DNA of 37,481 nt from Acidobacteriota bacterium (GTDB lineage Bacteria; Acidobacteriota; UBA6911; RPQK01; JAJDTT01). Made by a program: the position numbers and the translations under genes. A model generated the notes under the pieces. The model was not told the origin of the DNA and searched no databases. It saw nothing but the letters and a program-made list of their open reading frames with translations. The stretch spans positions 87,981 through 125,461 of the forward strand of contig JAPPLF010000051.1 in the NCBI GenBank assembly GCA_028874215.1, read 5' to 3'. Position 1 is the stretch's first letter, and every line of letters starts with the position of its first letter. Positions 33,296-37,481 of this stretch are shown here, piece after piece.

Positions 33296-34452
33296 TGGAA
33301 AAAGATTTGAAGGCGTTGCGGATCGACCGCAACCGGAAGCGTGCCAGGCCGCCCCGAAACTTGTGGCTGATGGGACTGATGGCTTTCGTTCTGGGCGCTG
33401 TCCTGTCCGGGCTGGTTTTCCTGAACCTGTCGTTGCAGACGCCGGATGCCGCGGTGGCGGACGTGCAGGCGGATCGGGCGAACGCCGTTCCTGCCGTCCC
33501 CGGGGCCGATGGGGCGCCGGAACGGAACAGGACGTTGCTCATCGCCTCGGGCTACATCGTCCCTCGCCACCGGATCGAAGTCAGTTCCAGGATCATGGGG
33601 AAGGTCGCATGGGTCGGTGTCGACAAATCGGATCGAGTCGAAAAAGGCCAGTTGCTGGTCCGGTTGGAGGATGCCGAGTTCCGGGCCCAACTCCAGCAGG
33701 CGCAAGCGGGTCACGACTCGGCACGGGCCCGCCTCACCGAATTGGAAACCGGTTCACGGCCTGAAGAGATCCAGCGAGCGGAGGCGGAGCTGGAACGAAG
33801 CCGCGCCGACTTGGAAAATGCCGAACTCGAACATCGACGATTGAGTCAACTCATCGAAAGTGGCGTCATCGCACAACAACTGGTGGACGATGCCCGGTCT
33901 CGCCGTGACATGGCCAAGGCCACCGTCGCCGTGGCCGAGAAGAACCATCTGCTCCTGGAGATCGGTCCGCGAACCGAGCAGATCCAGGCTGCGCGCGCCG
34001 AGCTCGAACGAAGCCAGGCGGACATCTCATATTGGCAGACCCAATTGAAGGAAACGGAGATCCGGGCGCCCGTCAACGGCACGATCCTGGAGCGGGTCGT
34101 CGAAGTCGGCGAAATGGTCTCGGCTTATTTTATGGGGGGAGCCGTCCTGGTGGCGTTGGCGGATCTGAATGATCTGCAAGTGGAGATGGATATCAGCCAG
34201 TCGGACTTTCACAACATCTCGCCGGAGAACGGATGCAAGATGTCTCCTATCGCCTATCCGGCCCGGGAATACGAATGTGAGTTGGACGAGATCGCGCCCG
34301 AGGCCAACCGGCAGCGGGCCACGATCGAGGTGAAGGTCCAGATTCTGAAACCGGATCAGTACCTTCGGCCGGAAATGGATGTTCAGGTCACTTTCTTTCG
34401 CAGGCACCCGGACTCCGGAGCCGAAGCGGCCACCCCGGGGGAAACCGGATGA
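33295..34452 (+). CDS. HlyD/MacA-type periplasmic adaptor
   Basis: A 385-residue membrane-fusion protein. A cytoplasmic basic N-terminus (RKRARPPRN) precedes a single transmembrane segment (about 25-46). The biotinyl-lipoyl-like domain begins at [21 protein letters not shown] long coiled-coil hairpin covers about residues 120-250 ([17 protein letters not shown] through [12 protein letters not shown]), and the second lipoyl half is [19 protein letters not shown]. It would bridge the ABC permeases to an outer-membrane channel. No TolC-like gene is present. ATGA overlap with the ATPase gene follows. Confidence 0.9.
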
Positions 34453-35141
34453 CAAACGTTTTGATCGAAATGCGCCATCTGACCCGCGTGTTCCAGCGCG
34501 ATACCGTCCAGGTCGTAGCGCTGCAGGACATCAATCTGGACATCCGCGAGAAGGACTTCATCAGCTTGATGGGACCCTCCGGTTCGGGAAAGAGCACCCT
34601 GCTCAACCTGATTGCCGGCATCGACCGGCCGACCGGCGGCGAGCTCCGGGTCCTGGGAGAAGACCTGACCGCGCTCAACGAAGACGAGCTGGCCGGCTGG
34701 CGCAACGAACACGTGGGATTCGTGTTTCAGCACTTCAACCTGATCCCTGTCCTGACCGCCTTCGAAAACGTGGAGCTTCCCTTGCTGCTGACCGCGCTTT
34801 CCCGGAAGGAAAGGCGGGAGCATGTGGAAACGGCCCTGCGTCTGGTGAACCTTTCAGACCGAATACACCACTATCCGCGCCAGCTCAGCGGGGGAGAGGA
34901 GCAACGGGTAGCCATCGCCCGGGCAATCGTCACCGATCCCACCTTCATCCTGGCCGACGAACCGACGGGCGACCTGGACGCCGAGTCGGCCGGGGACATC
35001 CTCAAGGTTCTGGAGGCATTGAACCGGGACTTCGGCAAGACCATCGTCATGGTCACCCACGATCCCCGCGCCGCGGCCTACGCCGGCATCAATCATCACT
35101 TGGAAAAAGGGTCCCTGTTGGAGAAGGCCCAGGCCGAGTGA
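34449..35141 (+). CDS. LolD/MacB-type ABC transporter ATP-binding protein
   Basis: A 230-residue ATPase: Walker [10 protein letters not shown] (42-50), Gln94 in the Q-loop [10 protein letters not shown], signature LSGGE (146-150) followed by EQRVAIARA, Walker [10 protein letters not shown] (167-174) and the H-loop MVTHDPRAA. The residue after LSGG is Glu, and the next is also Glu, instead of the usual Gln-Gln. It is the last gene of the four-gene exporter operon, and its stop lies within the left copy of the hairpin repeat at 35134-35184. Likely substrate class: a peptide, lipid or antibiotic. Confidence 0.92.
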
Positions 35142-35184
35142 TCCGTTCGGAGGGGGGACATTCCTGTCCCCCCCTCTTCTTCAA
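35134..35184 (+). repeat. Hairpin repeat, copy 1 (also a probable terminator)
   Basis: A 51-base unit starting CCGAGTGA that also exists at 36265-36315. Its centre is a 9-bp perfect stem, GGGGGGACA (35152-35160) and TGTCCCCCC (35165-35173), around a TTCC loop, followed by a pyrimidine run CTCTTCTTC. It begins inside the final codons of the exporter ATPase gene (GAG TGA). Both copies lie in the same orientation. Confidence 0.8.
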
Positions 35185-35222
35185 CGTTTCACTCGAAATC
35201 CCAAAACAGCCGCATCGCGACT

Positions 35223-35375
35223 TCAGGTCAACTTGCGGAGGAACATGGCAACGCGTTCCAGCTTGCCGACCTCCTCCGGGTCCAGGCCGTCAGGCGCGAA
35301 ATGCATTACCTCGTTTCGCAACTCCCGGATCTGGCCCAAGTTGTGTATGAAGGTGGCGCGATCGACTTGCAATCC
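35223..35375 (-). pseudogene. C-terminal remnant of the CBS protein beyond an in-frame TAG (HEPN motif)
   Basis: Directly past the TAG at 35376-35378, the same frame stays open for 50 codons to TGA at 35223-35225. It encodes GLQVDRATFIHNLGQIRELR then NEVMHFAPDGLDPEEVGK and an end LERVAMFLRKLT. RNEVMH fits the Rx4-6H (RNxxxH) catalytic motif of HEPN ribonucleases. This matches the C-terminus I expect for CBS-plus-Swt1-like-HEPN proteins, so the stop looks like a nonsense mutation (TTG to TAG would suffice) and not the natural end. Sequencing error or readthrough cannot be excluded. Confidence 0.75.
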
Positions 35376-36212
35376 CTACCTGTCCCATCGATCCGGGTTC
35401 TCAATCAGGCGGCAATAGGCGCCGAAGTTGAGATCCCACGAGCCTTCGATCGGTCTGTTTGGATCATCGGACTCCTTCCTCATCTCTTCGAGAGTGAATT
35501 TGCTCACGAGATTCCGCAGATGGAGTTCGATTTCGCCAATGGTCAGGAACGGTTGGGCAAGCTGCGCGAACTGTATGGCGAAATCACTTGCCGTTACTAT
35601 TCCTGAGATTGTCCGGTCGATGTCTCGAACGAGAACGTATCCATGTTCCCAGATGTCCTTGATCGCATTGAACAAGGGAGCGTTGATGCCTATTTCCCGA
35701 GGGGATTCCATCCAGTCGCGGACCTCGTCGCTCTCGCATCCGAGCGTGTAGGCTGTTCCGATCGACCGCCAACTGACCACGCCCTTCACGTCGCGTTCGT
35801 TTGTCATCACCGGCAGCTGTGAGAAATCCTCGATCAACATGAGTGTCGTCGCTTTGGCGAGCGGGTTGTTCGGCTGCACGCTCGTTAGTTTGCAGCGGGA
35901 CGTCGGAAGTACGCGGATACGCACGGTCGGATCGGCCGGCTCGTTCCGGACACCCGTCGCCTCCATGTCCAGTTCGATCGCGATATCGCCGTCGATGTGC
36001 TCTCGCTCGAAATCGGGGACCGTGCGGAGATCGAGTTCCGCAAATTTGGTCCTGATCCGCCTGATGAGCCTGTCGCTTCGGCGCGAATAGTTGAACCAAC
36101 CCAGAAGCTCACGGACCGTCGTGAATTCCGCAACCGGCATGGCCCCACTATCCCGTTCAGATTTCATCCTGTCTGCGATTTTTTTGAGTTTCTCGTGGGC
36201 TTGATCAGGCAT
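35376..36212 (-). CDS. CBS-domain protein with truncated HEPN-like C-terminus
   Basis: A 278-residue protein up to the TAG. Residues about 30-100 form a family-specific N-terminal domain (TVRELLGWFNYSRRSDRL...PDFE). Two CBS modules follow at about 105-160 (LTSVQPNNPLAKATTLM) and 165-215 (ESPREIGINAPLFNAI, then SGIVTASDFAIQF). CBS pairs bind adenine nucleotides and would sense a ligand. The last segment (PFLTIGEIELHLRNLVSK onward) is the first half of a HEPN-type helical domain, cut before its catalytic motif. ATG 36212 is used; TTG 36227 is an in-frame alternative. It is flanked on both sides by the hairpin repeat. The product, if made, probably lacks RNase activity. Confidence 0.75.
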   Translation of the reverse strand: MPDQAHEKLKKIADRMKSERDSGAMPVAEFTTVRELLGWFNYSRRSDRLIRRIRTKFAELDLRTVPDFEREHIDGDIAIELDMEATGVRNEPADPTVRIRVLPTSRCKLTSVQPNNPLAKATTLMLIEDFSQLPVMTNERDVKGVVSWRSIGTAYTLGCESDEVRDWMESPREIGINAPLFNAIKDIWEHGYVLVRDIDRTISGIVTASDFAIQFAQLAQPFLTIGEIELHLRNLVSKFTLEEMRKESDDPNRPIEGSWDLNFGAYCRLIENPDRWDR

Positions 36213-36264
36213 GGCAATATTTCTCAAATGCCGTCGAAGCGGCTCGGACCCTCAATTTAGCAGT

Positions 36265-36315
36265 CCGAGTGAGCCGTTTGGAGGGGGGACATTCCTGTCC
36301 CCCGTTCTTCCTTCA
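36265..36315 (+). repeat. Hairpin repeat, copy 2
   Basis: Matches copy 1 at nearly all positions across CCGAGTGAnCCGTTnGG and the hairpin, with one indel in the 3' pyrimidine part. The stem is GGGGGACA (36284-36291) and TGTCCCCC (36296-36303) around TTCC. Just upstream, CGGCTCGGAC (36240-36249) can pair with GTCCGAG (36263-36269) plus GCCG, forming a second imperfect hairpin. Confidence 0.8.
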
Positions 36316-36371
36316 CCTTCATGGGGGCGCCTGCGGCGAGAAACCCGTCGCTCCCTAGCTGCTCCTGTTCT

Positions 36372-36653
36372 TCAGTGGATTTGCGAACGGTATGCGCCTC
36401 GACGATGGGCGATCCGGACGACAAGAATTCGAATGCGTTCATCGTTGATTTCGGCAATTATCCGGTAGTCTCCAACGCGGTACCGCCAAAGTTTGCGATA
36501 CCTGGTTCCCCGCATGGCACGCCCAAGTTGACGAGGATTTCGCATCCTGGCCAATCGGACCTCCAGGTAATCCCGAAGCCACTGTTGAGTCTGCCGACTC
36601 TGTTTTCGAATGGATTTCTGAACACTCTCAGCATACTCAACCTTCCAGGTCAC
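36372..36653 (-). CDS. RelE/ParE-family toxin
   Basis: A 93-residue protein of the RelE/ParE superfamily. It begins TWKVEYAESVQKSIRKQ and ends with the conserved strand block YRVGDYRIIAEINDERIRIL, followed by VVRIAHRRGAYR. That block and the basic C-terminal residues (Arg, His, Arg) form the mRNA-interferase core in RelE relatives. The start is GTG at 36653, inside the antitoxin gene's end (17-base overlap), a classic coupled pair. It appears complete. Ribosome-dependent mRNA cleavage is the likely activity; gyrase poisoning (ParE) cannot be excluded. Confidence 0.87.
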   Translation of the reverse strand: MTWKVEYAESVQKSIRKQSRQTQQWLRDYLEVRLARMRNPRQLGRAMRGTRYRKLWRYRVGDYRIIAEINDERIRILVVRIAHRRGAYRSQIH

Positions 36654-36855
36654 GCCACATCTCTTCGGAAGTTACGACTTTCTCGTCTCCATTGCGAACC
36701 CGTTCCAACACCTGTTCCGCCAGATGCAGGTCCTCCATTTCCTCGATCTTCTCGAGGATGGCTTCACGGGCGTAGGCGCTTTTGGTTTGGCCTGCCTCCT
36801 TTGCGAGTCGCTCAAGCCGAGCGTCAATCTCCTCGGGGATTCGGATTGAAAGCAT
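36637..36855 (-). CDS. Ribbon-helix-helix antitoxin (RelB/DUF6290-like)
   Basis: A 72-residue protein: MLSIRIPEEIDARLERLAKE forms the DNA-binding strand and first helix, AGQTKSAYAREAI the second helix of the ribbon-helix-helix, and the acidic C-terminus (VVTSEEMWRDLEG) is the probable toxin-binding region. ATG 36855 has GGAG six bases upstream, whereas the alternative ATG 36867 and longer frames do not. It overlaps the RelE-type toxin gene. It likely represses its own promoter. Confidence 0.85.
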   Translation of the reverse strand: MLSIRIPEEIDARLERLAKEAGQTKSAYAREAILEKIEEMEDLHLAEQVLERVRNGDEKVVTSEEMWRDLEG

Positions 36856-36876
36856 GACAATCTCCATACTGACAAG

Positions 36877-36904
36877 ATTACATATTCGGATGGAAAGCCT
36901 CCAA
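36877..36904 (-). promoter_or_regulatory. Possible promoter of the RHH/RelE pair
   Basis: On the minus strand TTGGAG (36904-36899) and TGTAAT (36882-36877) have a 16-base spacer and lie 21 bases before the antitoxin start. The -10 matches at 5/6 positions; the -35 is weak. Confidence 0.35.
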
Positions 36905-37017
36905 GTCCAACAAACGATCCGCGTGGAGAAACCGTGATCGAGGGCACCGATGCCGAGGCTCTCTGGACAGATGCCATGCCCAGACAACCGGTGACAAAGC
37001 CATCCGATATTGGGCTC

Positions 37018-37481
37018 TCACCCGCCGGAAACTTCGAACCCGGCAGGCTGCCGGGAGTGATGGTCGGTGACCTGCTGGTAGGCTTGCCCCAGAGCCAGGA
37101 TCCGGGACTCGTCGAAGAGGCGCCCGGTGAGGGAGATGCTGGTGGGACGGCCTTCGGGATCGAAACCGTTGGGAAGCGCGAGGCAGGGGAGTCCCGTCAG
37201 GTTGGTGAGTCTCACGTTATAGCTGAAACTGGGAGCCAGGTAGGCGTCGATTCCAGACATGACCTGGGCCATGTCCTCCATCAACAATGAGCGTAGCCGA
37301 TTGGCCTGGATATACTCCACGGCCGGCACGAACCGGGCCTGACGGAACACGCACAGGGCGTTGTCGTAAGCGTCCCCTACCGAGCACATCGACGGCCGCA
37401 CTCCCGCCTCCCGGCATCTTTTCCCAAAGGCAGCCGAGGTGTACTGCGTTCCCTGGTCCGAGTGGTGGATCACCTGCTTGG
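37018..37481 (-). pseudogene. Chimeric ORF: IS3-family transposase fragment fused to amidase C-terminus (partial)
   Basis: The frame is open to the window edge. Its visible first part, down to about 37351, reads VIHHSDQGTQYTSAAFGKRC, then SMCSVGDAYDNALC. This is the integrase-core block of IS3-type OrfB, but it breaks off just before the expected catalytic Glu (DNAxxESF). From about 37350 the same frame continues as FRQARFVPAVEYIQANRLR and LTNLTGLPCLALPNGFDPEG, ending with the terminal block of an amidase-signature enzyme. The amidase lacks its N-terminal catalytic Ser-Ser-Lys region. Neither half can be functional. An IS insertion followed by deletion is the likely history. Confidence 0.75.

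Follow-up and report, generated by a model that had tools for sequence, protein, structure and literature searches.

DS-11 is a one-protein anti-phage system that was described in the DefensePredictor paper and validated in Escherichia coli (PMC13092281). Defence by the E. coli protein is lost when the HEPN catalytic residues are changed and also requires the CBS residue Tyr157, which is the predicted adenine contact (PMC13092281); anti-phage activity has been demonstrated for this E. coli protein only (PMC13092281). The proposed working of the intact protein is that its CBS pair senses a ligand of the adenine type and controls a dimeric HEPN RNase at the C-terminus. Fusions of HEPN to CBS domains were described by Anantharaman et al. 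(2013), who covered the Abi2/Swt1 group and CBS-HD fusions, with nucleotide sensing proposed to control RNA stability (PMC3710099).

The 37,481-nucleotide stretch of Acidobacteriota DNA analysed here (the window) contains a gene with the same architecture as these fusions and with the Rx4–6H motif, interrupted by an in-frame stop. It differs from them in matching no HEPN Pfam model, so that a place in the Swt1 branch is not supported by a profile. The features of the gene are as follows.

35376–36212, minus strand: truncated DS-11 frame, comprising the N-terminal domain, the CBS pair and the first part of the HEPN domain; 278 amino acids from the ATG, 283 codons from the TTG at 36227
35538–35915, minus strand: CBS pair, about residues 100–225, with Phe130 aligned with Tyr157 of E. 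coli DS-11 (Pfam, PDB folds, alignment and PMC13092281)
35376–35378, minus strand: in-frame TAG stop, a Leu codon in three congeners (translation and congener alignment)
35223–35375, minus strand: in-frame remainder after the stop, 50 codons and TGA, corresponding to the last two HEPN helices (alignment and structure model)
35301–35318, minus strand: RNEVMH, the HEPN Rx4–6H motif, with Arg299, Asn300 and His304 in the numbering from the ATG (alignment of 14 homologues)

Family assignment

Read through the stop, the frame matches NCBIfam NF053863 (DS11_antiphage, CBS domain-containing anti-phage protein) over the whole profile (positions 1 to 305, spanning the stop) with 334.8 bits against a curated whole-protein cut-off of 260 bits, and it scored 332.3 bits in a six-frame search. 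Judged by this match the gene is a clear member of the DS-11 family, so that the CBS–HEPN protein recognized in the first-pass annotation is borne out and its family sharpened to DS-11. The R, N, V, M and H of RNEVMH are invariant in all 14 aligned homologues. A CBS Pfam model matched with 34.8 bits, and Pfam detects the CBS part only: no HEPN Pfam model matched at E 0.1, the tail giving just a sub-threshold match to DUF3644, and the 'Swt1-like' label originally given to the HEPN domain is not established. Among the 50 matches listed from a PDB fold search there are only CBS-domain or CBS-containing chains; since the CBS part dominates this search, the result bears on the HEPN assignment neither way. 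DS-11 is not among the PADLOC 2.0 models. The assignment of the C-terminus as a putative HEPN domain is based on the motif, on family membership and on the published work (PMC13092281).

Like E. coli DS-11, with which it shares 43% identity over the aligned residues, the window gene gives a full-length profile match above the cut-off and combines a CBS pair with a C-terminal HEPN domain carrying RNxxxH. The residue at the predicted adenine contact, located from the CBS Pfam match, the PDB CBS folds and the alignment, is aromatic in both proteins but is Phe130 instead of Tyr in the window copy, as it is in the intact congeners. The two also differ in the stretch preceding the CBS pair, where the long insert of the E. 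coli protein is short in the window copy, and in that the window allele ends 50 codons early.

A phage or viral origin of the gene was considered and rejected: phage records contain nothing that matches it, and searches of viral contigs confirmed no relative. The N-terminal region varies among homologues: one from another genus of the phylum (L034, 1057–2424) is extended at its N-terminus by about 110 residues that resemble Mrr_N by eye, and one from Geomonas (L021, 3965–4837) is without the N-terminal domain, its homology running from the CBS pair onwards with the HEPN motif intact.

The interrupted frame and its predicted structural consequence

Translation of 36227 to 35223 confirmed the interruption as first annotated: on the minus strand the frame runs for 283 codons to the TAG at 35376–35378, just before the RNase motif (RNEVMH, 35318–35301), and continues without frameshift for 50 more codons to the TGA at 35225–35223. 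The start is likely to be the ATG at 36212 (MPDQAHEK...) and not the TTG at 36227, because homology to the congeners begins at the former; this gives a truncated product of 278 residues in a frame of 329 residues including the TAG position. An open tail of 50 codons is by itself not improbable, as 15% of base shuffles of the stretch also stay open. The tail aligns gap-free with the C-terminus of the intact orthologues in three congeneric genomes and of ten further DS-11 homologues, and because of this homology it is more than a chance opening. On the assembled sequence, the window allele is a broken DS-11 gene and not a working member of the family, R-N-x3-H being in frame but absent from the translated product. 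It has the character of a pseudogene, with an in-frame stop relative to intact orthologues that removes essential residues (the need for the HEPN residues being taken from PMC13092281).

Modelled with the stop read through, the frame gives a structure with a mean pLDDT of 85 in which the stop falls at residue 279, the last of helix 273–279; the truncation removes the motif-bearing helix 285–303 and the final helix 312–328, including Arg299, Asn300 and His304. In the window allele residue 278 would be the last one translated, where the helix before the catalytic one ends; because the R-N-x3-H helix and the last helix would be missing, the product is predicted to have no RNase activity and to provide no defence. 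With the HEPN fold incomplete in the model, the short product may in addition be unstable. Of the possibilities raised in the first-pass annotation, that of a disarmed defence effector is the best reading.

Ancestral state and age of the stop

The orthologue is intact in each of the three further species of the genus that have been sequenced (G001, G002 and G003). These orthologues (L017, L018 and L019) are 80–88% identical to the window copy, have the same length and share the amidase neighbour, but carry leucine where the window copy has the stop; the Leu codon, which had been guessed beforehand, is seen in 3/3 congener alignments. Across the phylum, DS-11 is present above the family cut-off in 10 of 396 genomes, and the stop occurs in the window copy only. 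No homologue that ends naturally at the TAG position, which would have told against an interruption, turned up within or outside the phylum; the alleles of E. coli with ends nearby are broken copies.

A four-taxon codon model, purpose-written for the analysis and applied to four sequences, gave a dN/dS of 0.16 on the window branch (approximate 95% range 0.09–0.265) versus 0.17 elsewhere, and dN/dS = 1 was rejected on the window branch (2 × ΔlnL = 43). For the 50-codon tail alone, which is too short for the test, dN/dS was 0.285 and 1 was not rejected. From the upper limit of 0.265, a rough mixture estimate puts the fraction of the branch without selection at no more than about 0.12, or roughly a tenth. 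Because the window-branch value lies far below 1, the gene was under selection until almost the present, and the stop is either very recent or a base error; the recent event proposed from the sequence alone is thus supported. Since the frame and tail are otherwise preserved, the mutation is placed at or near the tip of the lineage. A single nonsense mutation would have arisen there and inactivated the genus's single-gene DS-11, and a recent nonsense mutation that disarmed this anti-phage system is the best-supported account of the locus, one that we consider probable.

Locus history

No second intact copy of DS-11 was found in the genome. Another contig, C89, carries a decayed and frameshifted DS-11 remnant (L027, 889–1333) that covers only residues 57–205 approximately, is without the HEPN part, is about 75% identical to the window copy and adjoins a complete amidase gene. 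Because the intact DS-11 of the congeners adjoins the same amidase, gene order places the amidase side of the ancestral locus on C89, where DS-11 has decayed. The neighbours of the window copy include an ABC transporter gene and an amidase fragment of 314 bases, the latter being 93% identical to C89 and 88–89% to the congeners; these identities suggest a duplication within this lineage. Provided that the stop is real, both copies of DS-11 would have been lost from this lineage, the C89 copy long ago and the window copy only now. The surroundings of the window copy contain the following features.

35130–35183, no strand assigned: repeat copy 1, 3' of the gene, with the palindrome GGGGGACAGGAATGTCCCCC at 35153–35172
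36261–36315, no strand assigned: repeat copy 2, 5' of the gene, with the same palindrome at 36284–36303; same orientation as copy 1 and 89% alike
36372–36987, minus strand: type II module, separate from DS-11 and just upstream of it, with genes for a RelB-like antitoxin and a ParE/RelE-family toxin
37036–37349, minus strand: partial amidase gene (complete on C89), fused at the end of the contig to a piece of an IS3 transposase

The gene order in the window (34449–37349) is ABC transporter, DS-11, RelB/ParE module and amidase fragment; in the congener G001 (L025, 15565–19818) it is ABC transporter, RelB/ParE module, DS-11 and amidase, with the toxin–antitoxin module on the other side of DS-11. 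DS-11 in the window is flanked by the two same-oriented palindromic intergenic repeats, and their core, GGGGGACAGGAATGTCCCCC, has nine exact copies in the genome (reversed control, 0). These repeats may be REP-like and may have served as the substrate of the module swap. At the contig end, an open frame (37018–37479) fuses the IS3 transposase fragment to the amidase C-terminus, likely through an IS-mediated break.

Natural breaks in E. coli

DS-11 at 99% identity or more is present in 127 of 5,426 complete E. coli genomes. Among the variant alleles that were examined from the matches listed, which makes the count a lower bound, there are at least three independent C-terminal breaks, and all three lose RNDVMH: one adjoining an IS5-like element in strain SCU-482, a one-base deletion common to LSC52 and 2021CK-01784, and, in M00057, a premature stop following codon 301. 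Two further examined variants are single substitutions with the frame intact. These natural truncations (L113, L114, L115 and L116) include one allele, in two strains, that breaks at the residue aligned with the window TAG; in LSC52 the break is at Thr310, a coincidence of position that concerns two events only. With an older remnant in the window's own genome and three breaks in E. coli, loss of DS-11 is not rare.

Alternative explanations

Purifying selection up to the tip, an intact tail and three intact congeners fit equally well with a base-calling, assembly or strain-mixture artefact, in which case the organism's gene would be intact and encode a working DS-11. A lone substitution in one draft assembly would look the same as a base error or as a variant from a minority strain, and the genome is a draft of 113 contigs with an estimated contamination of 1.5%. 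Indels are typical of long-read errors, and substitution errors are rare in polished short-read contigs. The change is, however, a clean substitution and not an indel, and the C89 remnant and the E. coli alleles show that genuine breaks of the DS-11 gene happen; an artefact is considered unlikely, if still to be reckoned with. The preserved tail would also be expected if programmed or leaky readthrough, or re-initiation at the in-frame TTG two codons past the stop (35372–35370, with a weak AGG 6 nt upstream), yielded full-length DS-11 or a two-piece split HEPN. Against the regulated readthrough product that had been envisaged, RNA folding around the stop is no better than in shuffled sequences (z = −0.33), on which ground a readthrough element was rejected, and no aligned relative has a stop at that position. 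Recoding of TAG as an amino acid was likewise rejected: ARAGORN read a CUA anticodon in none of the 53 tRNA matches of the genome, one weak match having an unreadable anticodon, PylS scored below its cut-off, and TAG also terminates other large reading frames of the window. Readthrough or re-initiation is regarded as highly improbable.

The shortened CBS protein could instead be retained for a function of its own, for example by pairing with other CBS proteins and inhibiting them, in keeping with the E. coli breaks, which also leave a CBS-bearing N-terminus and in one case end near the same aligned residue. Those breaks nevertheless lie at three different places, one within the CBS pair, the genome is without an intact DS-11 to inhibit, half a HEPN bundle is expected to fold poorly and persistence of the short form is not known from any lineage, so that retention of this kind seems very doubtful. 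In a broader version, DS-11 would be recurrently switched off in unrelated bacteria by truncation just before the catalytic HEPN helix, the CBS-only form being either harmlessly parked (reversible) or a regulator. The window TAG would then be one case and the E. coli frameshift, at the residue aligned with it, an independent second one. We give such a switch little credence.

Biological implications

With a recent nonsense mutation as the favoured account, the window gene is probably a new, inactivated member of the DS-11 family, and the finding looks like an ordinary recent loss of a defence gene, with no new mechanism shown. Together, this allele and those of E. coli suggest a possible cost of DS-11, with the RNase end being what is lost. 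Constraint was strong until the stop appeared, and every other sequenced species of the genus keeps DS-11 beside the same amidase; a real stop would make this gene a clean, dated null allele from nature for an anti-phage protein that has only recently been validated.
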